Positions 1,032 to 24,043 of a stretch of DNA of 40,459 nt are shown piece after piece. How positions within the stretch are numbered: position 1 is the stretch's first letter; every line of letters starts with the position of its first letter. The stretch spans positions 1 through 40,459 of IMG/VR virus record IMGVR_UViG_3300006810_000117; one strand, written 5' to 3'. The position numbers and the translations under genes are program-made. Source of the DNA: a virus. The notes below the pieces were generated by a model. It ran no database searches. It was not told the origin of the DNA and saw nothing but the letters and a program-made list of their open reading frames with translations.

Positions 1032-1835
1032 ATGGGACACATAGGAAACACAGTCCAGACTGCTTTTACTAGCTTCGATAAACAGACGATTACTGGCAGT
1101 GGCACAGCGGTCTACACACTGTCTCACAACGTGGCGAATGAGCAAGAAATTGAAGTCTTTGTAAACAACGTCCGTCAGGAAGGTGGGTCAGGTAAGGCAT
1201 ATACCGTGTCTGGCAACCAGATCACATTTAGCGAGAACATCGCCAGCACCGATACAGTTTACGTCAACTTTGCTGGCAAAGCAGTTCAAACGGTTAGTCA
1301 TCCATCTGACCAACCGATGCAAGCGACCACAGGCACCTTTAGCGGAGCAATTTCTGTCGGCACAATTAAAGACAGTTCGAGCACTAACACTGCGATGACC
1401 ATTGATAGCACTGGTCGTATTCTGACACCTGCGAGACCAGCGTTCTTCGCGTATCTCCCCAGCAGTGTTCCTATTAATAATACCTCTGAAACCGATATGT
1501 GCCAGTATATGACATCAACAGACTTCAATGTTGGTGGTCACTATTCAGCGTCTGGTGGTTTTGTAGCACCAATAGATGGCATTTACTCTTTTCAGGTTGG
1601 TTTTTACTTCTATCCAATAGCATATGCAGAGGTGGAAGTTCATAAAAATGGTACTAGATACCAGCGTCTGTCCAATATAGTTGCCGCAAGTGCGGTCAAT
1701 CCCTATGCAAATAATTATGCCTTTCTGATGCAGTTGTCTTCATCCGATGAAGTCAAGGTTGCTGTGTCTGCTGGTACGGCAACACTTTATCATGGTGACA
1801 GAAACACTTTCTTCAGCGGTTTCTTAGTGGGGTAA
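1032..1835 (+). CDS. Tail fibre / receptor-binding protein with C1q-like C-terminal domain
   Basis: A 267-aa protein. Residues about 10-95 form an N-terminal beta domain ('AVYTLSHNVANEQEIEVFVN', then 'YTVSGNQITFSE') typical of a small phage-fibre anchor module. Residues about 115-135 carry the linker 'SSSTNTAMTIDSTGRILTP', which is shared with three downstream genes. The last 130 residues ('GGFVAPIDGIYSFQVGFYF' through 'FFSGFLVG') read as a C1q/TNF-like jelly roll, a fold that trimerises and binds ligands. It is probably the most complete member of the cassette, because it has both anchor and tip. The receptor is unknown. Confidence 0.75.
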   Translation: MGHIGNTVQTAFTSFDKQTITGSGTAVYTLSHNVANEQEIEVFVNNVRQEGGSGKAYTVSGNQITFSENIASTDTVYVNFAGKAVQTVSHPSDQPMQATTGTFSGAISVGTIKDSSSTNTAMTIDSTGRILTPARPAFFAYLPSSVPINNTSETDMCQYMTSTDFNVGGHYSASGGFVAPIDGIYSFQVGFYFYPIAYAEVEVHKNGTRYQRLSNIVAASAVNPYANNYAFLMQLSSSDEVKVAVSAGTATLYHGDRNTFFSGFLVG

Positions 1836-1841
1836 TTAGAC

Positions 1842-2366
1842 ATGGCACTTTCTAAGATAACAAATGGTGGTGTAGCGGCATCTGGTTTACCAGCGGGTAG
1901 TGTATTGCAGGTTGTTAGCACGACAAAGACGGATACTTGGTCTGACACTCCCGGCGCAGGGGTATTTCTTGACATCACAGGTTTATCAGTAGCTATCACA
2001 CCGACTTCAACTACAAGTAAAATACTTGTGACTTTTTCTACTAATGTTAGCGCAAATGGTGCCTCCACAACAGGCGTCCGTTTAATGCGAGATTCAACAG
2101 CAATTAGCGTTGGTGATGCGGCTGGCTCCAGACCGCTTGCCACAACTGGCGGTGGGGGACATGAGGGTGCTAATTGGAACGGTGATGTTTTAGCTAGTTC
2201 GTTCTTAGATTCACCAGCTACAACAAGTTCAGTAACTTACAAACTGCAATTAACTGGAAACGCATCAGCTACGCAGTATGTGAATATGAAGGCTAGAGAC
2301 TCTAATTCTACTGCGGAGGATATGCGAATGACATCTCATATTACTGTGATGGAGATTGCAGGATGA
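1842..2366 (+). CDS. Receptor-binding cassette protein, second type (paralogue of 4639-5130)
   Basis: A 174-aa protein starting six bases after the previous stop. It is defined by 'LPAGSVLQVVSTTKTDTW' near the N terminus, 'ITPTSTTSKILVT' in the middle, 'SFLDSPATTSSVTYKL', and the ending 'HITVMEIAG'. The same landmarks in the same order occur in the gene at 4639, so the two are paralogues. The fold looks all-beta. This type is common next to fibre genes of marine phages, where it is taken to be a fibre tip. That role is inferred from context. Confidence 0.72.
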   Translation: MALSKITNGGVAASGLPAGSVLQVVSTTKTDTWSDTPGAGVFLDITGLSVAITPTSTTSKILVTFSTNVSANGASTTGVRLMRDSTAISVGDAAGSRPLATTGGGGHEGANWNGDVLASSFLDSPATTSSVTYKLQLTGNASATQYVNMKARDSNSTAEDMRMTSHITVMEIAG

Positions 2367-2429
2367 GGCATGAAGCTATCTATAATTTATACTCAGCCGT
2401 GATGATGTAGTCTGGCCGGAGAAACCATA

Positions 2430-2534
2430 ATGGCATACATAGGAAAATCACCTGTAGGCGGTGGGTTTAATAAACTATCATTCCCTGCTGCCTCTGCTAC
2501 AGACACCTACGCTCTTACGCTAGGTGCTGAATAA
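2430..2534 (+). CDS. 34-aa ORF resembling the N terminus of the next gene (possible gene remnant)
   Basis: ATG at 2430, stop TAA at 2532-2534, preceded by GGAG at 2418-2421 with good spacing. The peptide starts 'MAYIGKSPVGGGFNKL', and the gene at 2559 starts 'MAYIGSQQGTAAPILLDSIS', so it looks like the anchor end of the same family cut short by a stop codon. Either it is the stump of an old receptor-binding gene left after cassette exchange, or it is a translated mini-protein. The intact ribosome site leaves translation possible. Confidence 0.5.
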   Translation: MAYIGKSPVGGGFNKLSFPAASATDTYALTLGAE

Positions 2535-2558
2535 CTAATTTACAAACGGAGATAGCTC

Positions 2559-3026
2559 ATGGCCTATATCGGCTCCCAACAGGGGACTGCCGCGCCTATT
2601 CTGTTGGACAGCATCAGCGTTGTGAATGGACAAGCGGCATACACTATGCAGAAGAATAGTGTTAACTACTCACCAGCGTCTGAACTTACGCTACAGGTCA
2701 GTCTCAACGGACTTGTCCAAGCACCTTCTAACAGTTTCACCATAAGCGGAAGCACAATCACCTTTGCCGACCCACTCGTGACCGGAGATGTCATTGACTA
2801 CATCCTCGACCGTGAACCATCTACTGGAACGATGGAACCGCTGGATGCAAGTGTAACAGCAGACAAGATTGCAAGTTCGGTCATGCGGAACGGCATTAGG
2901 GTCAATGGTGCCACACTGTCTACTAATACTACGATTGCATCATCAGAACGCGCCATGGTCGCAGGTACATTCACGATAGACACCTCAACCACACTTACAA
3001 TCAACGGGGAGATGACCATTGTCTAA
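2559..3026 (+). CDS. Fibre-anchor type protein (MAYIG family)
   Basis: A 155-aa protein with ribosome site GGAGATAG just before the ATG. Residues 1-95 match a module I recognise from marine podovirus tail genes: 'MAYIG', 'NGQAAYTM', 'LQVSLNGLVQAPSN', 'ISGSTITFADPL', 'GDVIDYILD'. The C-terminal 40 residues ('TTIASSERAMVAGTFTIDTS') form a short beta region of the kind that ends many such proteins. It overlaps the next gene by eight bases, so the two are probably translated together. Likely role: a base that links fibre or tip proteins to the virion. This is inference from family and position. Confidence 0.72.
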   Translation: MAYIGSQQGTAAPILLDSISVVNGQAAYTMQKNSVNYSPASELTLQVSLNGLVQAPSNSFTISGSTITFADPLVTGDVIDYILDREPSTGTMEPLDASVTADKIASSVMRNGIRVNGATLSTNTTIASSERAMVAGTFTIDTSTTLTINGEMTIV

Positions 3027-3555
3027 ACTTTACGTCAACGACATCTACTCGAAGGCTGGTGCGTCAGAAGCAATCAACATCGACAGTGATGGTAACGTTA
3101 ATATTCCAAACAAACTCACTGTTGGAACTATTCCTGCTGTGTTTGCTCAAGGCGGCAACAACTCCAACAAACAAGTTGAAACAGGAGACAGAATTGGTGC
3201 CACAAACGATGGGCAAGCGGCGTTTTTAACGGATGGTACTCAGCGTTCATTTATTCAAGGCGGTATGACTTACAACAGTGCTACTGGGACATTTACTGTG
3301 CCTGTCGCTGGTCTCTATTACATCATGGGTCAATACTATTTGAACGAGAATAATACAGCAAGAATACAGTGCTACATAAATGACACTGCCGTTTCTCTAG
3401 CGCATACCCATATTAGTGGTGGAACCGTTCGTACTGAGTGTATTCAAAGCCTCTCCGCTAATGATGAAATTGAATTTAGACAAGACACTGGCAGTACCAG
3501 AACAATATATGAGGGTGTGAATCACACGCTTATAAGTATCTATTTAGTGGGGTAA
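3019..3555 (+). CDS. C1q-like tail tip / receptor-binding protein
   Basis: A 178-aa protein. The start is a TTG at 3019, supported by GGGGAG at 3006-3011 and by overlap with the previous gene. The N-terminal 40 residues ('KLYVNDIYSKAGASEAINID') act as a short linker. The rest is a C1q-like jelly roll: 'GTFTVPVAGLYYIMGQYYL', 'ARIQCYINDTAV', 'ECIQSLSANDEIEF', ending 'LISIYLVG'. It lacks the anchor module of the 1032 gene, so it may assemble on the 2559 protein. The receptor is unknown. Confidence 0.72.
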   Translation: MSKLYVNDIYSKAGASEAINIDSDGNVNIPNKLTVGTIPAVFAQGGNNSNKQVETGDRIGATNDGQAAFLTDGTQRSFIQGGMTYNSATGTFTVPVAGLYYIMGQYYLNENNTARIQCYINDTAVSLAHTHISGGTVRTECIQSLSANDEIEFRQDTGSTRTIYEGVNHTLISIYLVG

Positions 3556-3561
3556 TGGATA

Positions 3562-4098
3562 ATGGCATCAGTATTGAACGTTGACCAGATCGGTCACTCA
3601 ACATCAGGCACTACCGCTCTGACTATAGACAGCAGTGGTCGTGTTTTAATGCCTAATAAACCATTTGTGTCTGCCGCTTGGAATGGTTCTGGGACAACCG
3701 CATATTCTACTCCGCTTTCTCGTTTCACCACTTACAATACAACTGATACTAATATTGGGTCTGGTAACACGAGAATAATTTACAAAAACGATTACAACAT
3801 GCTGGATACAACTAATGGATTAGTAACCATACCAGTGACAGGTATCTATCTTATAGTTGGACATTATGCGGCGGCATTATCAGGAACTTTAGGTAGAAGG
3901 ATTGGACATCTGTTTGTAACACCCTCTGGTGGTTCTATCACGGATTATGGCGAGTGGGTTGAAAGTTACGGCACCTATGATGATTCAACAGGGACAAAAT
4001 TGTTAAGTCTTAACGCAAATGATCAAGTCGCATTTGGTCACAATGTTTCGGTTATAAATTGGGATGCGTTTGGTTTTGAAATGATTTTGCTAGGATAG
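3562..4098 (+). CDS. C1q-like tail tip / receptor-binding protein
   Basis: A 178-aa protein of the same build as its neighbours. The N-terminal linker 'STSGTTALTIDSSGRVLMP' matches the 'TAMTIDSTGRILTP' linker of the 1032 gene, and is followed by a C1q-like domain with 'GLVTIPVTGIYLIVGHYAAA' and 'LLSLNANDQVAFGHN', ending 'FEMILLG'. Linkers are conserved across the cassette while the domains differ, as expected for interchangeable binding modules. Spacing to both neighbours is a few bases. Confidence 0.72.
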   Translation: MASVLNVDQIGHSTSGTTALTIDSSGRVLMPNKPFVSAAWNGSGTTAYSTPLSRFTTYNTTDTNIGSGNTRIIYKNDYNMLDTTNGLVTIPVTGIYLIVGHYAAALSGTLGRRIGHLFVTPSGGSITDYGEWVESYGTYDDSTGTKLLSLNANDQVAFGHNVSVINWDAFGFEMILLG

Positions 4099-4110
4099 GG
4101 GTAATTAGAT

Positions 4111-4626
4111 ATGACAAGCATACTTAAAGTCTCAAGCATCCAAGACCCCACAAACAGCAACACAGCGTTACAGATTGATACGAGTGGGCGTGTGACTACG
4201 CCTGTTGTTCCTGCTTGGCGAGTGTCACTAAACGCAACCCAATCAGTTTCATCTACTGGATACACTCAAGTACAACTTGACCTAACAAGTACAGAAAACT
4301 GCTTTTTAAATGGTGGTGTGACAATCTCAAGTTATGAAGTGGTTGTGCCAATAACAGGAATTTACGCCGTACATTCTTATGTAAGGGTTGATGGCGTCGG
4401 AACAGGTTATGTGCAATTAGGTATAACGATAAATGGTGTAAGAACTGGCATGAGTGATTCATACAGTATAGAGGGTTCTCCACCGGGTAATTACACCACT
4501 ATAAACGCAAGCGATGTTTTCAGCGTAAACGCAAACGATACATTTAGAATGGAAGTTTATACAAGCAATGACAATTCTTACACTATAAATAGCAATACTG
4601 TGTTTTCAGGGCATTTAGTAGGATAG
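4111..4626 (+). CDS. C1q-like tail tip / receptor-binding protein
   Basis: A 171-aa protein with the linker 'NSNTALQIDTSGRVTTP' near residue 15, followed by a C1q-like domain ('VVPITGIYAVHSYVRVDG', 'INASDVFSVNANDTFRMEV', ending 'VFSGHLVG'). It is the fourth C1q-like protein in 3.6 kb. The domain boundaries and the 'VP-TGIY' and 'NAND' landmarks are as in the 3562 gene. Composition is more AT-rich by eye than in the replication genes, as in most of this cassette, which may reflect exchange between phages. Confidence 0.72.
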   Translation: MTSILKVSSIQDPTNSNTALQIDTSGRVTTPVVPAWRVSLNATQSVSSTGYTQVQLDLTSTENCFLNGGVTISSYEVVVPITGIYAVHSYVRVDGVGTGYVQLGITINGVRTGMSDSYSIEGSPPGNYTTINASDVFSVNANDTFRMEVYTSNDNSYTINSNTVFSGHLVG

Positions 4627-4638
4627 AGGGGGACTAAC

Positions 4639-5130
4639 ATGGGATTAATACGATTACAATCCAGCAGTCTTCCTAGTGGGTCTGTGTTGCAAGTGGTTCA
4701 GGGTATCAAGACTGACTACAGTTATACTACATCGTCATCATTCGCCAGTAGTGGTCTTAAAGCATCAATCACACCCTCATCAACCAGCAGTAAGGTGCTT
4801 GTAACAATACACACTCTGTTGGGACAAAGTAATTATCTCAAACGTATTTACTTGAAGTTGATAGGCGGTAATGCCGCCACGGGGTACATAGGTGATGATG
4901 GAACTGGTGTTGAGTGTTCTATGGCTGTCACAACAAGAGTATCGGACGCTTATGGGATGATACCAGTAAGTTTGCAGTATCTTGATAGCCCATCTACCAC
5001 ATCTTCAACAGAGTATGATTTGCATTGGGCTGTTGAGGCTAATGAAGGCATTATGAACAGGCCGCAGAATTTAGATGCAAACGGCGCTAAAACAGCAAGC
5101 ACAATCGTCCTACAGGAGATTGCTGGATGA
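4639..5130 (+). CDS. Receptor-binding cassette protein, second type (paralogue of 1842-2366)
   Basis: A 163-aa protein. 'LPSGSVLQVVQGIKTDY', 'ITPSSTSSKVLVT', 'QYLDSPSTTSSTEYDLHW' and the ending 'TIVLQEIAG' line up with the same landmarks in the 1842 gene. It is the last member of the cassette, and its TGA overlaps the ATG of the 5127 membrane protein, so the receptor-binding and lysis genes are translationally linked. All-beta, presumably a tail tip. The role is inferred from context. Confidence 0.72.
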   Translation: MGLIRLQSSSLPSGSVLQVVQGIKTDYSYTTSSSFASSGLKASITPSSTSSKVLVTIHTLLGQSNYLKRIYLKLIGGNAATGYIGDDGTGVECSMAVTTRVSDAYGMIPVSLQYLDSPSTTSSTEYDLHWAVEANEGIMNRPQNLDANGAKTASTIVLQEIAG

Positions 5131-5836: not shown

Positions 5837-6040
5837 ATGATCACAGTAGTTGTGCTTGCCTGTTATGTAGCGCAGCCCGAGTTTTGCCATCAGTTTACTG
5901 ATACGAGAGGCAGTGTTTTTACACAAGAGCAATGCGAAGCCCGAGCTTATGAGATGGGTAAAGATATCATAAAAACCGAGCAGGGGACTTTGTACCCAAC
6001 CAAGTTTAAATGCGTAATGCCAAAGGGTATCGAAACATGA
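5837..6040 (+). CDS. Small four-cysteine protein with N-terminal hydrophobic stretch
   Basis: A 67-aa protein. 'MITVVVLACYVAQPEFC' gives a short hydrophobic start. Cysteines at residues 9, 17, 33 and 59 could form two disulphides if the protein is exported. It lies between the membrane protein and the lysozyme, and its stop overlaps the lysozyme start (ATGA at 6037). A lysis accessory role is likely by position. The molecular function is unknown. Confidence 0.6.
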   Translation: MITVVVLACYVAQPEFCHQFTDTRGSVFTQEQCEARAYEMGKDIIKTEQGTLYPTKFKCVMPKGIET

Positions 6041-6459
6041 ATGAAAACCAGTTAGATCGTGTGCGTAAACGGTTGATCGCTGAAGAGGGTCTAAAGTTAC
6101 AGCTTTATCATTGTACAGCCGGCAAGCTCACGATAGGCGTAGGGCGTAATGTTGAAGACCGGGGTATCACACACGACACCGCCATGCAGATGCTAGATGA
6201 GGACATCGATATCTGCGTAGGTGAGCTTGAGAAGAACCTCAGCTGGTTCGAAGATGCCCCAGACAAGATCCAGGAAGTCTTGATCGACCTGTGTTTTAAC
6301 ATGGGTATCAATAGACTGATGGGCTTTGTTAAGACGCTGCATAAACTAAAGACCGGCGCATACAAAGAGGCCGCGGAAGAGCTCCTGGACAGCCGTTATG
6401 CGTCCTCAGTACCCAACCGTGCCAAGCGCAACGCAGACATCATAGCATCGATGGAGTAG
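6037..6459 (+). CDS. Endolysin, T4-lysozyme type (GH24)
   Basis: A 140-aa muramidase that cleaves the glycan strands of peptidoglycan at the end of infection. The start at 6037 is chosen because it overlaps the upstream stop (ATGA) and gives a normal N terminus; an in-frame start at 6010 would add nine residues. The region 'EEGLKLQLYHCTAGKLTIGVG' aligns with T4 lysozyme and gives the triad E17-(8)-C26-(5)-T32, so Cys replaces the usual Asp20. A Cys variant at this place is known in phage lysozymes and is compatible with activity. There is no signal-anchor sequence, so release should depend on a holin. Confidence 0.9.
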   Translation: MNENQLDRVRKRLIAEEGLKLQLYHCTAGKLTIGVGRNVEDRGITHDTAMQMLDEDIDICVGELEKNLSWFEDAPDKIQEVLIDLCFNMGINRLMGFVKTLHKLKTGAYKEAAEELLDSRYASSVPNRAKRNADIIASME

Positions 6460-6462
6460 CCG

Positions 6463-6834
6463 ATGATCGCAGCCCTTATACCAGCCGTATCGAGTATCCT
6501 GGACAAAGTGATACCAGATGCCGACACAAAGCAGCGCCTGGCAGCTGAGATTAGCACCATGGCAGAAAAGCATGCCCAGGAGATCGCTCTGCAGCAGATC
6601 GAGATCAACAAGGCAGACGCCAAAGGTAACTGGTTTCAGTCGTCCTGGCGTCCACTTACAGGCTACGTATGTGTCCTGGGTTTCATGGTTAACTTTCTGA
6701 TATCACCGATTGCAGCTGGGTTTGGTGTACACATACCCCAGGCTGACACATCGACTATGTTGCCGGTTCTGATGGGTATGCTCGGCCTGGGTGGCATGAG
6801 AAGCTATGAGCGCATCAAGGGTGTCGGTAAGTGA
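6463..6834 (+). CDS. Holin, GTA-type 3-TM family
   Basis: A 123-aa protein. An amphipathic N terminus (1-15) and a charged helix (20-55) precede the family landmark 'WRPLTGY' at 62-68, then hydrophobic segments at about 68-88 and 97-113 and a basic tail. This matches the 'holin of 3TMs, for gene-transfer release' family found in alphaproteobacterial gene transfer agents and marine phages. It should permeabilise the inner membrane and let the lysozyme out. It lies three bases after the lysozyme gene. Confidence 0.82.
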   Translation: MIAALIPAVSSILDKVIPDADTKQRLAAEISTMAEKHAQEIALQQIEINKADAKGNWFQSSWRPLTGYVCVLGFMVNFLISPIAAGFGVHIPQADTSTMLPVLMGMLGLGGMRSYERIKGVGK

Positions 6835-7132: not shown

Positions 7133-7164
7133 ACATCGTCCCCCCAATGTGGACGGTGTTTTTT
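7133..7164 (+). terminator. Rho-independent terminator closing the late operon
   Basis: The stem ACATCGTCC (7133-7141) pairs with GGACGGTGT (7151-7159), nine pairs including one G-U, around a nine-base loop, followed by six T (7159-7164). It lies 37 bases after the last lysis gene and seven bases before the next promoter motif, so it separates the late block from the early block. Confidence 0.85.
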
Positions 7165-7186: not shown

Positions 7187-7230
7187 GTTGTGTGGTAGAG
7201 AATCGGTAGGAAGTCCACTTGTGGCGAGCA

Positions 7231-7280
7231 GCTGACTTCTAATCAGCAGGTTGGGGGTTCGAGTCCTCCCGGAATCGCCA
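7231..7280 (+). other. Probable attP core: 3' half of a tRNA-Arg(TCT) gene
   Basis: The sequence folds as the 3' half of a tRNA. The anticodon stem GCTGA/TCAGC encloses the loop CTTCTAA with anticodon TCT (7238-7240). Then come a variable loop, a T arm with loop TTCGAGT closed by GGGGG/CCTCC, the 3' acceptor strand CGGAATC (7270-7276), discriminator G and encoded CCA (7278-7280). The matching 5' acceptor strand (GATTCCG) and a D arm are missing upstream, so this is not a working tRNA gene. Such fragments are the attP cores of phages that integrate into a host tRNA and rebuild its 3' end. The integrase gene begins about 0.9 kb downstream. Confidence 0.78.
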
Positions 7281-7321
7281 CTCTTGAGACTTCTGCGACA
7301 ACATGTCACAGGAGAGCAACA

Positions 7322-7540
7322 GTGAGCATATTTAAGTCAAAACCTACCCAAGTTACTTGGCAGTCAGCCAAGCCTTTCTCAGTCGATCTTTACAGCAGCC
7401 GGTACCCGGTGTGCGGCAGCCACATGGTATGGGCTGTCGTGGGCTATAAGTGGGTTCGCATCCGCAAAGCCTTCGGCCAGGTCGTGCCATTTAAGGTACG
7501 CCGCGCAGAGTGGGATCAAATTGCGAAGAGGGCTCTGTAA
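7322..7540 (+). CDS. Early small protein, unknown function
   Basis: A 72-aa protein starting with GTG at 7322 after the ribosome site AGGAGAG. It is basic and Trp/Tyr-rich ('VTWQSAKPFSVDLYSSRYP', 'VWAVVGYKWVRIRKAFGQ'), with no membrane segment. It is the first gene after promoter copy 1 and the att site, so it is expected to be expressed early and to act on the host or on regulation. No family recognised. Confidence 0.6.
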   Translation: MSIFKSKPTQVTWQSAKPFSVDLYSSRYPVCGSHMVWAVVGYKWVRIRKAFGQVVPFKVRRAEWDQIAKRAL

Positions 7541-7953
7541 TGGAGCCGCGTCTGATCGAAAAGTATCGTGTCGGGGGTGACATCAAAACCCTCGGCGCGC
7601 ACGAAACCAGGTGGCAGTTTGGCAACCACGAGATCCGCGTACGTATACGCCGTGGCAACTGGCAGTATTACATGAATGCTAATTCAAGGATCTCTGGCTG
7701 GAACGAGCGCAGCCTGGCCGATTTCCCTGAGTGGCTGGATGTGCGTTGTCCAACAATGACAGATGACCAGCTGCCGGCAGTAGAGAAATGGTTACGCCAA
7801 GCACTAGCTAATGACGGCGATACCCGTGGTTTTGAGATTAGTACTAAACGCTATTTGCCGCGCCAGAAAGAGTTTGTGGGGCAGCCGTCTAGGCATTGGA
7901 TTGCTGAGTGCGACCGGGGCAAGCCCGAAAGAATACAATCATGGACGGAGTAG
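7540..7953 (+). CDS. Early protein, unknown function
   Basis: A 137-aa protein. The ATG at 7540 overlaps the previous stop (TAATG), and this start is preferred over the in-frame ATG at 7510 inside the upstream gene. Charged, with several Trp and Arg ('RWQFGNHEIRVRIRRGNWQY'), no membrane segment, probably cytoplasmic. It lies between the att site and the integrase. I do not recognise a family, and no helix-turn-helix is evident, so a repressor role cannot be claimed. Confidence 0.6.
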   Translation: MEPRLIEKYRVGGDIKTLGAHETRWQFGNHEIRVRIRRGNWQYYMNANSRISGWNERSLADFPEWLDVRCPTMTDDQLPAVEKWLRQALANDGDTRGFEISTKRYLPRQKEFVGQPSRHWIAECDRGKPERIQSWTE

Positions 7954-7958
7954 AGAGC

Positions 7959-8141
7959 ATGTACATAGATCCCATCGACCCATTCACACACATGGTCAAC
8001 TTAAACGCTGAGATCAAACGGCTTGAGGATGAGCTGTTTGACGCCGCCGGTCGCGGCGAGCCGTGCGACAACATAGAGACTAACTTGTCGGTGATGTACC
8101 AGGCGCGAGCTGACGGCCACACAATGATCCCACTGTTTTAA
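7959..8141 (+). CDS. Small early protein, unknown function
   Basis: A 60-aa acidic protein 'MYIDPIDPFTHMVNLNAEIK', with a helical middle ('RLEDELFDAAGRG'). The start at 7959 is chosen because an AGAG-type ribosome site lies just before it; in-frame starts at 7941 or 7908 are possible. It directly precedes the integrase. An excisionase is possible by size and place, but the sequence has no recognisable Xis features. Confidence 0.5.
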   Translation: MYIDPIDPFTHMVNLNAEIKRLEDELFDAAGRGEPCDNIETNLSVMYQARADGHTMIPLF

Positions 8142-8158
8142 TATTGGAGAGCACAGTC

Positions 8159-8995
8159 ATGGATACACGTATTGAGAACTTCACTTTTAAGTATCACGCC
8201 CGGATCTGGTCTAAAGAAAAGCACCGCAACGAAAGCACCCACCGCATCCAGCGTTTTGTAGGTGTCGTGGGTAATATCGAGCTGGCTGAGATTGATGGCA
8301 GCCACCTGTACCGCATGATGGATGCATTAGAGGCAGACGGCTTATCTAAAGCAACCATTAATCGCTACGTGGCTGCCGTACAGGCGGTGTTGAGCTTCGC
8401 CAGGGCGTCTGGTATGGCAGCACGTGTAATCAGCGTTAAAACGCCCTCAGAAGACCACCGCATCCGGTTCTTTAGTGACCAGGAGCTGGACGCGATTGAG
8501 CGCTTCTGTGATAACCCTCGTATACCGATGTGGTTTAAGGAGATGTGTGATCTGGCTCGCTACACCGGCATGCGTCACTCAGAGATCAGCAACCTGCGTG
8601 ACCCATCGAAGGCGCGTGTCGAAGAGGGTGACGATGGTCTGTGGTGGATCACTCTGTTTAAGACTAAGAACGGTGATCAACGTCAGGTAGCTTTGTACAA
8701 ACAGGAAGCGATTGATGCAGCTCGCAGCCTAGCTGCCGGGTTCCCTTACAATGCAAAAGAGTTCTACCTACTCTGGAACGTCCTTAGAGCGCGTGTAGCG
8801 CCTGGTGATAAGGACTTTGTATTCCACGTATTCCGGCACACCGCAGCTAGCGCCATGGCCAACGACATGCGTTTAAACAGCGATGTCATTGGTCAGTGGC
8901 TTGGCCACAGAAATCACAAAACAACGTCTAAGTATATCCACATTAAGCCGGAAACTATTGGCGACATTGCAAAACGAATGGCGGCAGCTGGCTAG
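8159..8995 (+). CDS. int: Tyrosine site-specific recombinase (integrase)
   Basis: A 278-aa protein that should catalyse integration of the phage at a host tRNA locus. The N-terminal ~95 residues form a SAM-like core-binding domain ('HRIQRFVGVVGNIELAEID', 'KATINRYVAAVQAVLSFA'). The catalytic domain has R139 ('TGMRHSEI'), a probable K170 in the beta hairpin, H223 and R226 ('HVFRHTAAS'), H250 ('WLGH') and the nucleophile Y259 ('SKYIHI'), so all residues needed for catalysis are present. The start at 8159 follows GGAGAG; a TTG at 8144 is the alternative. The protein is shorter than lambda Int and lacks an obvious arm-binding domain. Confidence 0.93.
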   Translation: MDTRIENFTFKYHARIWSKEKHRNESTHRIQRFVGVVGNIELAEIDGSHLYRMMDALEADGLSKATINRYVAAVQAVLSFARASGMAARVISVKTPSEDHRIRFFSDQELDAIERFCDNPRIPMWFKEMCDLARYTGMRHSEISNLRDPSKARVEEGDDGLWWITLFKTKNGDQRQVALYKQEAIDAARSLAAGFPYNAKEFYLLWNVLRARVAPGDKDFVFHVFRHTAASAMANDMRLNSDVIGQWLGHRNHKTTSKYIHIKPETIGDIAKRMAAAG

Positions 8996-9361: not shown

Positions 9362-9375
9362 TTGTGTTCCCCCAT
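9362..9375 (+). promoter_or_regulatory. Promoter-like motif, copy 2 (before RNA polymerase)
   Basis: TTGTGTTCCCCCAT, followed by AGCATATA exactly as in copy 3, giving 22 identical bases. It lies 33 bases before the RNA polymerase ATG, so the polymerase may amplify its own transcription. Confidence 0.75.
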
Positions 9376-9408
9376 AGCATATACGTAGGGGACACTAAGG
9401 GGATCAAT

Positions 9409-11913
9409 ATGACATCTATGGATAGACTAAATGGCTCTACGCTTGCCCAGCTGCAGCGTGAGAAGCAGATGATGACTGACGGCCACGACCGTTTCTTAGA
9501 CCGTCAAGCCAAGCTAAAGGATTTAAGCATTGCGCCGGCTAACTCTAGACTTCTGAAGGACGCACTCGCGGCAACCACAGAAGCATTACGTATTAGGTTG
9601 GACGAAGCGTGTGCAGCTGATGGTCGGCCTTTCGATTGGGTACTAGATCTAAAGTCTTTGGATACTGAGCTCCTAAGTTACTTAGGTCTCGTGAATTGCA
9701 TGGAAGGCGTTGGTATGGCTGCGACCAGGACTAGCGTACTTCGCAACATCGGCGGACGTGTCGAAATGGAGCACTTTAGTGTTGAGCTGAAGGCATACGA
9801 CAAGGCGCTTCACGATAGGATTACAAGCCTCGCTACAAGCAATAACAGCAGCAGCGAGCACCGGAAGAAGGCTGTAAGACACATAGCAGCTAAAGAAGGC
9901 TTTGTGCATGATAAATGGTCTCAAGAGCGTAGGATGAAAGCAGCTGCACCCATCCTTAGCGCTATACTTGAGGCATCAGGTGTCTTCGAGGTTTGGACAC
10001 AGATCAAAGACAACAAGACTGTGTACAGAATTGGTCTGTCCGAGGAAGCCTCAGAGGGCATCGCTGACATCAATCAAGAGATCAGCTGGAATGAGCCTGT
10101 GTTTACACCGATGATCACACCACCGAAACCTTGGGACAGTGATGACAGTGGTTGTTACTTAGATCCAGCACTGGCTAGTACTACGCCTCTAGTGCGCCAT
10201 ATGTCACCTAAGCAGCGTGGAATGCTAAAGTCAGCAATACGTAGTCGCCGTATGCAGCCGGCCTTAGATGCACTAAATGCAATCCAGGCTACACGTTACA
10301 CCATGAACACATACGTACTCGCAGCTGTAGAGTGGGCATGGGAAAACAGCCTACAGCCGGGCTCTAGTTTCCCTCAGCGTGACAAGCTGGAGCACATTAA
10401 GTTCCCTGAGAACTACGATGAGCTGTCTGATGAAGACAAAAAGGGCATTCGGCTGAAGGCGCAGGACATCCGTGCTCTCAATAAGCAAGTGGATGCTGAT
10501 CGCTCGATGATGACCATGGATCTAAGGCAAGCTAGAGACCTGGCTAATTACGAGCATTTCTACCTGCCTCACAGCTTTGACTTTAGGGGTCGTATTTACC
10601 CAGTGTGTAACTTCAACACGCACCGCAGCGACCACATCAAGTCTCTATTTACCATAGCTGACAAGAAGCCAATCACTGAATCTGGTGCCAGGTGGATTGC
10701 CATCCAGGTAGCCAACACCGGCGACTTCGGAAAGATCAGTAAGCAATCATTCGAAGACCGGGTGCAATGGGTCATCAATAATGCTGATCGTATAGCAGAG
10801 ATCGGTAACGACTTCGAGGGTACCTATGATGGCGATGATCCTGAGCAGCTGTACTGGTCTAAGGCAGACAAGCCATTTGCATTCCTGGCTGCTTGCCGAG
10901 AGTTCTTTGGCTTCTGGGTTCACGGCACTGACTACGAAAGCGGCTTGCCTATCAACCTCGATGGTTCCAACAGTGGCATCCAACACTTTAGTGCGGCCAG
11001 CTGTACTGAGACTGACGGAGCCCTGGTCAACCTGGTGCCAGGCGACAAGCCTCGGGACATCTACCAGGCTGTAGCAGACAAGGTGACTGATCTGTTGAAG
11101 GCTGACGATGACCCGGTGGCTAAAGAGTGGCTCGACTATGGTGTCACAAGGAAAGTCGTAAAGCGCAACGTGATGACCTACGGATACTCAAGTGGCATCT
11201 ACGGCTTCACGGATCAGCTAATGGAAGACCTGATGATCCCACTGCGTAACAGTGTGAGAAAAGGTGACCTGGATAAGCACCCATTTAGTGACCCAGGTAA
11301 GGCTGCCAGGAAGCTAGCCAATGCAAACTGGACAGCCATAAACCAGGTCATCGTAGGCGCTGCAGATGGCATGCGGTTCTTCCAGGCGTTTGCACATGCC
11401 CTGGCTGACGTTAATCAGACCATGAGCTGGTTTACGCCGGTCGGGTTCCCAGTCGATAATGCGTACTATAAAAACAAAGCTAAGCGTCTACGTATCTACC
11501 TATACGACAAGCAGGTAGACAGCCAGGTACGCACCAGCGCTGTACTCAACATGGCCGACATTCGGACTGTTGATAAACGCAAGTGTGGTGCAGCTGTGAG
11601 CCCTAACATGATCCACAGCCTGGACAGCAGTCACCTTATGAGCACTGTTCTCAAGTGTCTCACGAAAGGTGTGCGTAACTTCATGCTAATTCATGACAGC
11701 TTCGGCACAGTGCCGGCAGACACTGACAAGCTCTTCATGGCTGTACGTGAGGCGTTTGTCGCACAGTACGATGGCGTGTGTATCTACAGTTTCATCACTG
11801 ATCAGATCCTCGAACACATCGACCTGGGCTTGGACAAACAAGCGCCAACAATACCAACTAAAGGCAGCCTGGACATAAAGGCTGTACTGCAGAGTGACTA
11901 CTGCTTTGCGTAG
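9409..11913 (+). CDS. Single-subunit DNA-directed RNA polymerase (T7 type)
   Basis: An 834-aa protein, close to T7 gp1 in length. The ATG at 9409 follows AAGGGGA; a longer reading from the GTG at 9364 starts inside the promoter motif and is rejected. Family motifs are intact: 'DFRGRIYP', the first catalytic Asp at D518 ('LDGSNSGIQHFSAA'), the nucleotide-binding helix K585-RNVMTYGY593 (K631 and Y639 in T7), and the second catalytic Asp at D763 ('HDSFGT'). It should transcribe the replication and late blocks from phage-specific promoters, most likely the four TTGTGTTCCCCCAT sites. Its own early expression probably relies on the host polymerase. Confidence 0.95.
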   Translation: MTSMDRLNGSTLAQLQREKQMMTDGHDRFLDRQAKLKDLSIAPANSRLLKDALAATTEALRIRLDEACAADGRPFDWVLDLKSLDTELLSYLGLVNCMEGVGMAATRTSVLRNIGGRVEMEHFSVELKAYDKALHDRITSLATSNNSSSEHRKKAVRHIAAKEGFVHDKWSQERRMKAAAPILSAILEASGVFEVWTQIKDNKTVYRIGLSEEASEGIADINQEISWNEPVFTPMITPPKPWDSDDSGCYLDPALASTTPLVRHMSPKQRGMLKSAIRSRRMQPALDALNAIQATRYTMNTYVLAAVEWAWENSLQPGSSFPQRDKLEHIKFPENYDELSDEDKKGIRLKAQDIRALNKQVDADRSMMTMDLRQARDLANYEHFYLPHSFDFRGRIYPVCNFNTHRSDHIKSLFTIADKKPITESGARWIAIQVANTGDFGKISKQSFEDRVQWVINNADRIAEIGNDFEGTYDGDDPEQLYWSKADKPFAFLAACREFFGFWVHGTDYESGLPINLDGSNSGIQHFSAASCTETDGALVNLVPGDKPRDIYQAVADKVTDLLKADDDPVAKEWLDYGVTRKVVKRNVMTYGYSSGIYGFTDQLMEDLMIPLRNSVRKGDLDKHPFSDPGKAARKLANANWTAINQVIVGAADGMRFFQAFAHALADVNQTMSWFTPVGFPVDNAYYKNKAKRLRIYLYDKQVDSQVRTSAVLNMADIRTVDKRKCGAAVSPNMIHSLDSSHLMSTVLKCLTKGVRNFMLIHDSFGTVPADTDKLFMAVREAFVAQYDGVCIYSFITDQILEHIDLGLDKQAPTIPTKGSLDIKAVLQSDYCFA

Positions 11914-18561: not shown

Positions 18562-18881
18562 ACAGCTTGACTGAATACCAAAAGAAAGCTGCAAGCACCG
18601 CCATCTACTCAATTAACCAACAGATCAACTACCCAGCTCTCGGCTTAGCCGGCGAGGTCGGTGAGGTGTGCAACAAGCTAAAGAAACTAATCCGTGATGA
18701 CATCACCCTGGATGACATCCGCGACGACTTGAAAAGCGAGCTGGGCGACTGCCTCTGGTACCTCGCTGTCCTGGCAAGAGACCTGGAGCTCAGCCTGGAT
18801 GAGATCGCAGAACAAAACCTACAGAAACTAGCAGATAGAAAGCAGCGAGGGACGCTGCATGGATCGGGAGATACCAGATGA
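18552..18881 (+). CDS. MazG-like nucleotide pyrophosphohydrolase
   Basis: A 109-aa protein. 'GLAGEVGEVCNKLKK' (EVGE, the ExxE half) and 'SELGDCLWYLA' (ExxD half) form the metal-binding four-helix motif of all-alpha NTP pyrophosphatases. It should hydrolyse non-canonical or excess (d)NTPs; in phages a role in altering (p)ppGpp has also been proposed. It overlaps DUF3310 by ten bases and the RNR by four (ATGA), so the three genes form a nucleotide-metabolism unit. Confidence 0.88.
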   Translation: MAIDSLTEYQKKAASTAIYSINQQINYPALGLAGEVGEVCNKLKKLIRDDITLDDIRDDLKSELGDCLWYLAVLARDLELSLDEIAEQNLQKLADRKQRGTLHGSGDTR

Positions 18882-20593
18882 ATAATATGATGAAGCACAA
18901 CCAGCATTACGGCATGACACTGCCGTTGTCCGATGAGATCGATAGGCAAAAGTATCGCCAGGTCGGTGAGGACTTCTACAGCAAGGTAGTACGTATTGCA
19001 GATGCTTTGAAAGACACACCGGAACACTTCGAGGACTTCAAGGACGCCATGCGTCACATGCGGTTCCTGCCAGCTGGCCGTGTACAGAATGCAATGGGCG
19101 CTGCCCGGCAGACTACAGCATACAACTGCTTTGTCAGCGGCATCATCGAAGACAGCATGGACGTAATCATGAAGCGAGCCGCAGAGGCAGCTGAGACCAT
19201 GCGTCGCGGTGGTGGCATTGGTTATGACTTCAGCCGGCTGCGGCCACGCGGTGAGCTGATCAAGAGCCTCGATAGTAAGGCGTCAGGCGCTGTTAGTTTC
19301 ATGGGTATCTTTGATGCCGTGTGTCAGACCATCGCCAGCAGCGGCCACCGTAGAGGCGCTCAGATGGGTGTGCTGCGTGTTGATCACCCCGACATCGAGC
19401 AGTTCATTACTACGAAACATGACAGTACGACACTGACAGGTTTCAATATCTCTGTGGGTATCACGGATGAGTTCATGAATTACCTGGATGCTGGCAAGCC
19501 TTTCCCACTGCGCTTCGAAGGCAAGGTGTACAAAGAGGTAGACCCGGTCGCCTTGTGGGACATGATCATGAGAAGCACATATGATTGGGCTGAGCCAGGC
19601 GTAGTATTCCTGGATCGTATGAACGAGATGAATAACCTCTGGTACTGTGAGACCCTGGAAGCCACTAACCCATGCGCTGAGCAGCCTCTGCCACCGTATG
19701 GTGCATGCTTGCTGGGCAGCTTTAACCTTACCAAGTACGTAGACGATAAGTCATTCGACTGGGATCAGTACAAGTCTGACATCCACACAGTAGTGAGAGC
19801 CATGGACAACGTGGTTGACCGCACGATCTACCCACTGCCTGAGCAGAAGAGTGAAGCAGAGAACAAGCGCCGCATGGGATTAGGTGTCACTGGCATGGCC
19901 AATGCTGGTGAGCTGTTAGGCTACCCATACGCTACACCTACATTCATGGAGTGGGCTGAGAAGGCACTCAAGATGCTGCGTGATGAGTGTTACACAGCGT
20001 CAGCGCTGCTTGCCCAGGAGAAAGGTGCATTCCCACTGTACGACAAAGAGAAGTACACCCAGGGCAGGTTCTTCAAGACACTACCAAAGAAGGTACGTGA
20101 GCTGATCGAAGAGCATGGATTGCGTAACTCACACCTGACTAGCATCGCACCCACAGGCACCATCAGCCTGACTGCAGATAACGTAAGCTCAGGCATCGAG
20201 CCACCATACAGTCTGTACTACGACCGTACCATCCAACAGTTCGATGGCCACCAGATCGAGCGTGTGGAAGACTACGCATACAACCAGGGCGTCAGTGGAC
20301 GCACAGCCAATGAGATCACTGCAGATGAACACGTGGATGTCTTATGCCTGGCATCTAAGTACGTGGACAGCGCAGTGAGTAAGACATGTAACGTGGGTGA
20401 TGATGTGACCTACGATGAGTTCAAGCAGCTGTATTACAAAGCCTGGAAGGGGGGCTGTAAGGGCATCACTACGTTCAGAGCAGCTGGCAAGAGGTTTGGT
20501 ATCCTCAATGAGGTAAAGCCAGACAAGGAAGAACCTGCGAAGGCTGAGGCATGCTTCATTGACCCTGGCACAGGACAGAAGAGCTGTGAGTAA
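18878..20593 (+). CDS. Ribonucleotide reductase, class II (adenosylcobalamin-dependent)
   Basis: A 571-aa single-chain enzyme that reduces ribonucleotides to deoxyribonucleotides using B12, so it needs no oxygen and no separate small subunit. Visible features are C84 ('TAYNCFVSG'), the finger-loop radical region 'NPCAEQPLPPYGACLLG' with C266, 'RRGGGIGYDFSRLRPRG', 'IAPTGTISL' and a C-terminal tail with further Cys ('EACFIDPGTGQKSCE') for re-reduction by thioredoxin-type donors. No NrdB gene is nearby, which supports class II. The host must make or import cobalamin. Confidence 0.93.
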   Translation: MNNMMKHNQHYGMTLPLSDEIDRQKYRQVGEDFYSKVVRIADALKDTPEHFEDFKDAMRHMRFLPAGRVQNAMGAARQTTAYNCFVSGIIEDSMDVIMKRAAEAAETMRRGGGIGYDFSRLRPRGELIKSLDSKASGAVSFMGIFDAVCQTIASSGHRRGAQMGVLRVDHPDIEQFITTKHDSTTLTGFNISVGITDEFMNYLDAGKPFPLRFEGKVYKEVDPVALWDMIMRSTYDWAEPGVVFLDRMNEMNNLWYCETLEATNPCAEQPLPPYGACLLGSFNLTKYVDDKSFDWDQYKSDIHTVVRAMDNVVDRTIYPLPEQKSEAENKRRMGLGVTGMANAGELLGYPYATPTFMEWAEKALKMLRDECYTASALLAQEKGAFPLYDKEKYTQGRFFKTLPKKVRELIEEHGLRNSHLTSIAPTGTISLTADNVSSGIEPPYSLYYDRTIQQFDGHQIERVEDYAYNQGVSGRTANEITADEHVDVLCLASKYVDSAVSKTCNVGDDVTYDEFKQLYYKAWKGGCKGITTFRAAGKRFGILNEVKPDKEEPAKAEACFIDPGTGQKSCE

Positions 20594-22423: not shown

Positions 22424-24043
22424 ATGCCTATCATTCCGATCCGTAACCTGGGAAAGACCGGCGTTGTCACTGATAACAGTGCGTACAACATTCCCCTCAC
22501 AGGTTTTTCTGCAGGTTTTAATGTACGTTTCGATGAAGGCAGGGTGAGCCGAGCGCCAATCTTTAGAACAATAAAAGACAGTCTCGGTTTCACGCCGCGC
22601 TTTGCATATGGCATTGTGCCGGCTACAGGCTTCGATACTGTGGTCATGGCATCAGATGCATGGGCTATGAAAGAATACGCCAGTGGCACAGTGTCAGATG
22701 TGTCTGGTTCCATCACTGGATCATCAGACCCCCGGCCATACACAGGTACGTCCCTGGCTGATGTAACCTACATCAACCGTGTAGACCGTGTACCAGTGTA
22801 CCGTAGTAGCACCGGCACTAACTTTGCTGACTTGCCCAACTGGGATAGCACTCACAGATGCAAAGCTCTACGCTCATATGGTGACCAGCTGATTGCCCTA
22901 AACATGACAGAGGGCAGCACCAACTTTCCAACCAGGGTACGCTTCTCTGACATCACGACAGCCAATAGTGTACCAGGCAGCTGGGATGCCACTGACACCA
23001 CAAAGAGCGCAGGTTTTAACGACCTCGTACAGATCCCAACCGAGATCATTGATGGCATGAGCCTCGGTAGTAACTTTATTATTTACTCAAGTGACCAGAC
23101 TTGGCTCATGGAGTTTGTTGGCGGCACGTTTATATTTAACTTCCGTAAACTCTTTAATGACGCCGGCGTAATTAACCAAAACTGTGTAGTGGAAGCTGAG
23201 GGCAAACATTATGTCTTCGGAGCTTTCGATATCTATATTCACGATGGTACGTCAAAACAAAGCATATGCGATGAGCGTACTAAGAACTTCATTTACTCAA
23301 ACCTAAATAACAACAACTCAGATGTATGCTTTACGCAACACAACCCAGTGCTCAATGAGATCTACTTTTGCTACATGTCAGGCGACAGCCGCGTAGAGTT
23401 TCCTAACGCCAACCGCTGCAACCGCGCAGCTGTGTATAATTACCGTGCGAACACATGGTCATTCATGGACATGCCGAATGTTAGCAGCGGCACTATCGCC
23501 AACGTCAACTCTGTTTCTACATATGCCAACAGCACAACCACCTATCAGCTTACCGGTGGTACCTACTACAGCCAGGAAGACAGCTTTGATAGACACGTAA
23601 TCATGGTAGGCGAAGATCAATCATCTGACGGCATCACCAGTGACAAGATGTATGGCGTAGATCTATCAGACAGTGGACAGATTGCGTTCCAGCTCGATAT
23701 CGAGGCTACCAAGCCGCCATACCTGGAGCGTACCGGTATTGACCTGGACGAGGGCGGCCTAGCAGCCCGGCAGTATGTTGTTGTAACCAGGCTGTATCCA
23801 CAGTGTGATACGATCAACACAGCTGACACCACGCTCACATTTGAGTTTGGTGCATCAGACATCCCACGTGCCACACCAGTCTATGGAACACCAGCGATCT
23901 ATGACATCCCGACTGAGCACAAGATCGACAGCCGGGCAGCCGGTAGATACCTATCATATAGAATGACCTTGGCTGACACTGACTATAAAGACTTTGAGTT
24001 GTCAGGCTTTGACATCGAGATTACCCCGACAGGAGCCAGATAA
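22424..24043 (+). CDS. Tail nozzle / tail tubular protein B-like
   Basis: A 539-aa, all-beta, Tyr/Asn/Asp-rich protein without signal peptide or membrane segments. Blade-like repeats ('CKALRSYGDQLIALNMTEG', 'SNFIIYSSDQTWLMEF', 'VVEAEGKHYVFGAFDIYIHD', 'AAVYNYRANTWSFMDM') suggest a beta-propeller, as in nozzle proteins of podoviruses (T7 gp12 or P22 gp10 role). It should form the tail tube end below the adaptor. Ribosome site GGAG lies upstream, and the stop overlaps the next start (TAATG). Confidence 0.75.
   Translation: MPIIPIRNLGKTGVVTDNSAYNIPLTGFSAGFNVRFDEGRVSRAPIFRTIKDSLGFTPRFAYGIVPATGFDTVVMASDAWAMKEYASGTVSDVSGSITGSSDPRPYTGTSLADVTYINRVDRVPVYRSSTGTNFADLPNWDSTHRCKALRSYGDQLIALNMTEGSTNFPTRVRFSDITTANSVPGSWDATDTTKSAGFNDLVQIPTEIIDGMSLGSNFIIYSSDQTWLMEFVGGTFIFNFRKLFNDAGVINQNCVVEAEGKHYVFGAFDIYIHDGTSKQSICDERTKNFIYSNLNNNNSDVCFTQHNPVLNEIYFCYMSGDSRVEFPNANRCNRAAVYNYRANTWSFMDMPNVSSGTIANVNSVSTYANSTTTYQLTGGTYYSQEDSFDRHVIMVGEDQSSDGITSDKMYGVDLSDSGQIAFQLDIEATKPPYLERTGIDLDEGGLAARQYVVVTRLYPQCDTINTADTTLTFEFGASDIPRATPVYGTPAIYDIPTEHKIDSRAAGRYLSYRMTLADTDYKDFELSGFDIEITPTGAR

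Follow-up and report, generated by a model that had tools for sequence, protein, structure and literature searches.

Organisation of the locus

The stretch of DNA analysed here, called the window throughout, is a virus record of 40,459 bases. Between a lysis-gene block and the gene of a phage RNA polymerase it carries the 3' part of a tRNA gene, followed on the same strand by three ORFs and a tyrosine recombinase gene (Table 1). The tRNA-derived segment, positions 7226–7280, reads GAGCAGCTGACTTCTAATCAGCAGGTTGGGGGTTCGAGTCCTCCCGGAATCGCCA and covers tRNA-Arg(TCT) from the D stem (3' strand) to the encoded CCA; the strands of its anticodon stem were assigned by direct reading of the sequence. The sequence-only reading had described 7231–7280 as the 3' half of this tRNA without a 5' half nearby. 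Coordinates and description are correct, and the exact identity with 20 alphaproteobacterial tRNA-Arg(TCT) loci extends five bases beyond those 50, to 55 nt. The Rfam tRNA model matches positions 7220–7271 with 29.3 bits, barely exceeding the cut-off of 29, and the folding energy of the fragment alone is nothing unusual (z 0.58). Because ARAGORN detects no complete tRNA in the window, the 5' half of tRNA-Arg(TCT) is absent, which rules out a phage-borne tRNA gene. Chance similarity and a non-tRNA hairpin are excluded because the 55-nt match to host tRNA genes is exact. A megablast search of the window against the phage collection returned no matches.

The recombinase downstream of the fragment is complete, as had been proposed. 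In addition to its Pfam and PHROG matches, it contains a SAM-like domain (2.3e-05), and its profile matches the structures of XerA, XerD and the HP1 integrase. The catalytic residues are in place: K175, H228, R231, H255 and Y264 are invariant across the alignment, and the box I arginine, R144, is present in the window and substituted only in one divergent row (L087). Translation likely starts at the ATG at 8159 rather than at the TTG at 8144. The first of the intervening ORFs (7322–7540) is 86–97% identical in close relatives and 39% identical in L006, L010 and L011. No repressor or excisionase was recognised with Pfam and PHROG in the ORFs scanned, small ones among them, although divergent versions might escape such a search.

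The lysozyme and holin genes mark the late-gene side, upstream of the tRNA fragment. The hairpin and T run behind them, which the output of a simple terminator-type scan does not contain, are kept in those relatives whose locus extends that far. Inverted repeats flanking the core were considered as arm-type Int sites, but the one in the window is just 7 bp long and equally frequent in shuffled sequences (128 of 200). In L005, L006, L007, L010 and L011, the core is flanked by inverted repeats of 12–13 bp, a length reached in 0–1 of 200 shuffles. These repeats, whose sequence varies between phages, are possibly arm-type Int sites.

Table 1. Coordinates of the features discussed in the text (positions in the window unless a locus handle is given)
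Feature	Position	Strand	Remarks
Lysozyme	6010–6459	+	PF00959 1.6e-12
Holin	6463–6834	+	PHROG 3427 8.6e-30
Terminator-like hairpin and T run	7133–7164	+	ACATCGTCC...GGACGGTGT + TTTTT; closes the lysis-gene block before the putative attP
Putative attP core	7226–7280	+	Identical in 20 host tRNA loci; Rfam tRNA 29.3 bits; begins with the D stem 3' strand
Anticodon arm	7231–7247	+	GCTGA-CTTCTAA-TCAGC; presumed Int core site, proposed place of crossover
Anticodon stem 5' strand	7231–7235	+	GCTGA
Anticodon loop	7236–7242	+	CTTCTAA
Anticodon	7238–7240	+	TCT
Anticodon stem 3' strand	7243–7247	+	TCAGC
Variable loop	7248–7252	+	
T arm	7253–7269	+	
Acceptor stem 3' strand	7270–7276	+	
Discriminator	7277	+	G
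Encoded CCA	7278–7280	+	
Small ORF between putative attP and int	7322–7540	+	No Pfam/PHROG match; conserved in relatives
ORF between putative attP and int	7510–7953	+	No Pfam/PHROG match; 60% identity in L013/L046
Small ORF directly 5' of int	7908–8141	+	No Pfam/PHROG match; 95–100% identity in close relatives
Tyrosine recombinase (integrase)	8144–8995	+	Phage_integrase (PF00589) 1.6e-16; PHROG 1 1.4e-38
Single-subunit T7-type RNA polymerase	9364–11913	+	PF00940 6.7e-83; PHROG 414 2e-188
Ribonucleotide reductase	18878–20593		PF02867 1.6e-111
50-bp prophage repeats (tRNA-Lys(TTT) 5' half)	L084:8647–8696 and L086:8515–8564		G087 = IMCC1322

A mosaic genome

The window had been read as a T7-like podovirus, and this holds for one part of its genome. 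The RNA polymerase, SSB, endonuclease, primase-helicase, DNA polymerase and exonuclease are T7-like. The virion and packaging genes are not of the T7 type: LUZ24/PaP4/tf-like and GAP52-like phages provide the best relatives of the portal, of the major capsid protein and of a virion protein encoded at 22424–24043; the terminase is of the T4-like type. To judge from these gene affinities, the phage is a mosaic. In the region 1032–5130, six tandem ORFs of 155–267 aa (w1032, w1842, w3019, w3562, w4111 and w4639) cross-match the same stretches in related phages, which suggests a row of duplicated and diverged tail-fibre-like genes.

Conservation of the core and its association with the integrase

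In 11 phage contigs, the 52 nt at 7229–7280 are invariant while both flanks have diverged. Some of these phages are distant from the window phage, with RNA polymerases about 44% and integrases 36–38% identical to its own. The generality of the arrangement was assessed on 80 loci with related integrases. In many of them, the 3' half of a different tRNA (Met(CAT), Phe(GAA), Pro, Leu or Ser) is present, in most cases 5' of int and in the same orientation. The layout of a tRNA fragment beside int is thus conserved in relatives, and the type of tRNA tracks the integrase tree: the tRNA label changes 14 times on a tree of 62 rows, in which near-identical rows add to the clustering, against a mean of 25.1 for shuffled labels, and none of 200 shuffles was as low. 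The label Arg requires several changes on this tree, so Arg as a target was retained or acquired on more than one occasion.

The nearest distinct integrase relatives, L096–L103 (47–50% identity), yielded no tRNA fragment in the pattern search or, for four of them, with Rfam; some members may therefore use another kind of site. The same result, by pattern search and by Rfam where scanned, was obtained for L096–L105 as a whole, the closest integrases outside the clade of the window (about 40–50%). Upstream of a further related integrase, a tmRNA-like match (L120:1718–1826, Rfam E 0.001, under the family cut-off) suggests a tmRNA gene as the target of that enzyme.

The predicted host clade

SAR116 bacteria are abundant in surface oceans and, to our knowledge, few of their phages have been isolated so far. 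When 84,980 prokaryote species genomes were searched by pattern, 24 stretches were returned; 20 of them contain the exact 55-mer, and in nearly all of these 20 ARAGORN calls a complete tRNA-Arg(TCT). The prediction of a bacterial host whose tRNA-Arg(TCT) contains 7231–7280 has thus held up, with full-length matches rather than any shortfall below 45–50 bases, and the matching genes belong essentially to one clade. Twelve of the 24 stretches are titled SAR116 or Puniceispirillum, and several that bear generic or other titles, L018, L026 and L032 among them, come from genomes of the SAR116 order. Within this order (Puniceispirillales; 136 genomes, defined as the order to which the SAR116 single cell AG-911-J17 belongs), an exact 49-nt core occurs in 22 genomes, and 37 carry it with at most two mismatches. 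Among 385 genomes sampled across the class, only three have the exact 49-nt core, and all three are also in the list of the order. The tRNA matches therefore point to a clear host clade, the SAR116 (Puniceispirillales) bacteria. The cultured strain Candidatus Puniceispirillum marinum IMCC1322 is probably not the best host, because the anticodon stem of its tRNA-Arg carries two paired changes relative to the core (two mismatches).

Other elements also insert at the SAR116 tRNA-Arg gene, for example a 6.2-kb island that has an integrase-like gene of its own. Several SAR116 genomes have two or three exact or near-exact tRNA-Arg(TCT) 3' ends within about 1–9 kb (G001:C4, G076:C7, G082:C20, G083:C6, G008:C197 and G009:C22), which makes this gene a likely hot spot of integration. 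Two of these islands were rejected as relatives of the window phage: that of G001 encodes a 385-aa integrase-like and a methyltransferase-like ORF without the RNA polymerase of the window, and the stretch of G009, examined by eye, has no recognisable integrase or phage gene. The viral contig L012, which carries a complete tRNA-Arg, was rejected as a junction, as it contains no homologue of the window proteins.

A collinear prophage in strain IMCC1322

A search with the RNA polymerase family found a phage-type enzyme in one of the 136 SAR116-order genomes, on a contig of 2,753,527 bases (G087). The carrier is IMCC1322, because the coordinates agree with the region 385,000–425,000 given by Nishimura et al. 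2017 (PMC5332604). Lysogens that bear such a polymerase are accordingly rare or under-sampled. The prophage of about 40 kb is collinear with the window. The terminase (77%) and the ribonucleotide reductase (76%) are the most similar proteins, in this order, followed by the virion protein 22424–24043 (71%) and the portal (64%), while the integrase (34–36%) and the RNA polymerase (30%) are far more distant.

Direct repeats of 50 bp flank the IMCC1322 prophage at 384,647 and 424,515, 39,868 bp apart. Each consists of TTTATC and the 5' half of tRNA-Lys(TTT) and terminates in the anticodon arm; a complete tRNA-Lys(TTT) gene lies at 384,615–384,690. The free phage contigs L143, L144 and L155 carry an identical 44-nt tRNA-Lys(TTT) 5' half upstream of int, and L135 may have a 5'-half attP for tRNA-Asn. 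In attPs of this kind, the phage would supply the 5' half of the tRNA together with the DNA upstream. Such 5' fragments are the rarer type, accounting for 159 of 3919 islands in Islander (PMC4383910). The integrase relatives therefore comprise a 3'-half set (Arg, Met, Phe, Pro, Leu and Ser) and a 5'-half set (Lys, perhaps Asn).

Because a collinear prophage in IMCC1322 is bounded by a tRNA repeat, the group integrates into SAR116 tRNA genes, and the genome comparison indicates that stable integration does occur in it, IMCC1322 being a cultured strain. The prophage itself was reported in 2017; its att boundary, the tRNA-Lys(TTT) 5'-half repeat, is newly mapped. The search for prophages or junctions that the sequence-only reading had called for succeeded in part: it led to a relative with both its attL and attR junctions at tRNA-Lys, whereas no integrated copy and no attL/attR junction of the window phage was found among the exact-core loci.

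Proposed integration pathway

Full-length tRNA matches, a core and layout conserved in relatives and a collinear SAR116 prophage together uphold the proposed attP. Very probably, 7226–7280 is the attP core that the integrase recombines with the 3' part of the SAR116 tRNA-Arg(TCT) gene (attB). It is a well-supported and ordinary attP with the usual layout, and its phage group had been suspected of being temperate before. Less commonplace are the occurrence of two attP geometries in a single integrase family and the mapping of the IMCC1322 prophage boundary. After infection, the phage genome would circularise, and Int would pair attP with the identical host sequence and recombine the two. The crossover is expected in or near the 7-nt anticodon loop, with the anticodon arm as the presumed Int core site. 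This proposal draws on the established mechanism of tyrosine recombinases. It also fits the left edge of the identity between tRNA and mobile element, which always falls at 7225–7232, just 5' of or inside the anticodon arm, corresponding to site A of Islander (PMC4383910). The host 5' half, joined to the phage-borne 3' part, would rebuild the tRNA gene on the integrase side (attL), while the displaced 3' half would lie at the opposite end, behind the lysis genes (attR). The predicted attL reads host 5' half GGTTCCGTAGCTCAACTGGATA, core and then CTCTTGAGACTTCTGCGACAAC, and the predicted attR reads AGTCCACTTGTGGC, core and then host downstream DNA. The exact crossover, integration of the window phage itself and a regulated lysogeny are what we infer from this arrangement.

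Alternative explanations

A tRNA fragment by itself is no proof of function. Phages can carry tRNA genes, so the piece might be a tRNA gene of the phage in decay, or a scar left by transduction, without any role in integration. Decay would, however, yield neither a core that stays invariant between two diverging flanks nor tRNA fragments that differ between related integrases while occupying the same position, with a kind of tRNA that tracks the integrase tree. Because the tRNA piece follows the integrase in this way, an attP is favoured, and a decaying gene is highly improbable. Slightly less improbable, although still very doubtful, is a genuine attP whose host is a bacterium outside SAR116 that shares the tRNA-Arg 3' half. 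tRNA halves are conserved among kin, and a few exact matches are titled Rhodospirillaceae, Rhodobiaceae or Yoonia. Against this, no fewer than three loci whose titles are generic or different sit in SAR116-order genomes, the exact matches are confined to that order among the 385 class genomes, and the collinear prophage resides in a SAR116 strain.

A more serious objection concerns only the step to lysogeny and leaves the attP reading untouched. The attP and the integrase may work, yet, as with T7-like cyanophages, integration may happen only rarely and transiently while the phage goes through its lytic cycle, and true lysogeny would not arise. Phage S-TIP37 integrates in 0.3–1% of infected cells and forms no stable lysogens (Shitrit et al., PMC8776855), no repressor was found in the window with Pfam and PHROG, and only one prophage with an RNA polymerase turned up among the 136 SAR116-order genomes. 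The collinear prophage of the cultured strain IMCC1322, with its tRNA direct repeat, shows in turn that the group integrates stably, and purely transient integration is on balance unlikely. The mosaic nature of the genome matters here: T7-like cyanophages form no stable lysogens, whereas a cultured strain stably harbours a relative of the window phage. It is conceivable, at somewhat under an even chance, that a single SAR116-type podovirus integrase family has repeatedly switched tRNA target and attP geometry, and that its mosaic phages with T7-like polymerase are, unlike the cyanophages, truly lysogenic.

Relation to known phages and significance

The closest known counterparts are OBV_N00085 and three TOV-EVGs, which are collinear with the 385–425 kb region of IMCC1322 and were named temperate phages of SAR116 (PMC5332604). 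They share with the window phage a genome of about 40 kb, this collinearity and an encoded integrase. No att site is mentioned in the text of Nishimura et al. 2017, who state that predicting hosts from tRNAs was unsuccessful for their genomes (PMC5332604). The attP of the window, unlike theirs, is mapped, to tRNA-Arg(TCT), whereas the IMCC1322 prophage uses tRNA-Lys(TTT). A tRNA fragment beside a tyrosine integrase is also found in the cyanophages P-SSP7 and S-TIP37 and in HTVC019P-type pelagiphages, and pelagiphage integrases are detectable homologues of the window enzyme (25–28% identity). The cyanophage and pelagiphage examples found differ in targeting tRNA-Leu and in their hosts, and the window differs from them in its virion genes, which are not T7-type. 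For T7-like cyanophages with int and attP, integration is transient only (PMC8776855).

The MedDCM fosmid phage groups G16 and G18 were tied to SAR116 by their int/att (Mizuno et al. 2013, PMC3861242) and follow the same logic of an integrase and an attP identical to a SAR116 tRNA. They are other phage groups, with an average GC content of 35% and 44% against about 50% in the window, and the MedDCM phages listed with the window integrase reach 24–28% identity at most. The LUZ24/PaP4/tf-like podoviruses have a homologous portal, major capsid protein and virion protein (28–38% identity). Unlike them, the window phage has a T7-like replication and transcription module with a phage RNA polymerase and a ribonucleotide reductase.

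New here are the target gene and the host clade named for this phage. An uncultured marine phage, from a group in which predicting the host by tRNA had previously been unsuccessful, thereby receives a testable integration site and host clade, and a mapped prophage boundary is added for a sequenced cultured strain. As the phage has a T7-type polymerase and one of its relatives persists as a stable prophage, marine podoviruses of this kind now allow a direct test of lysogeny.
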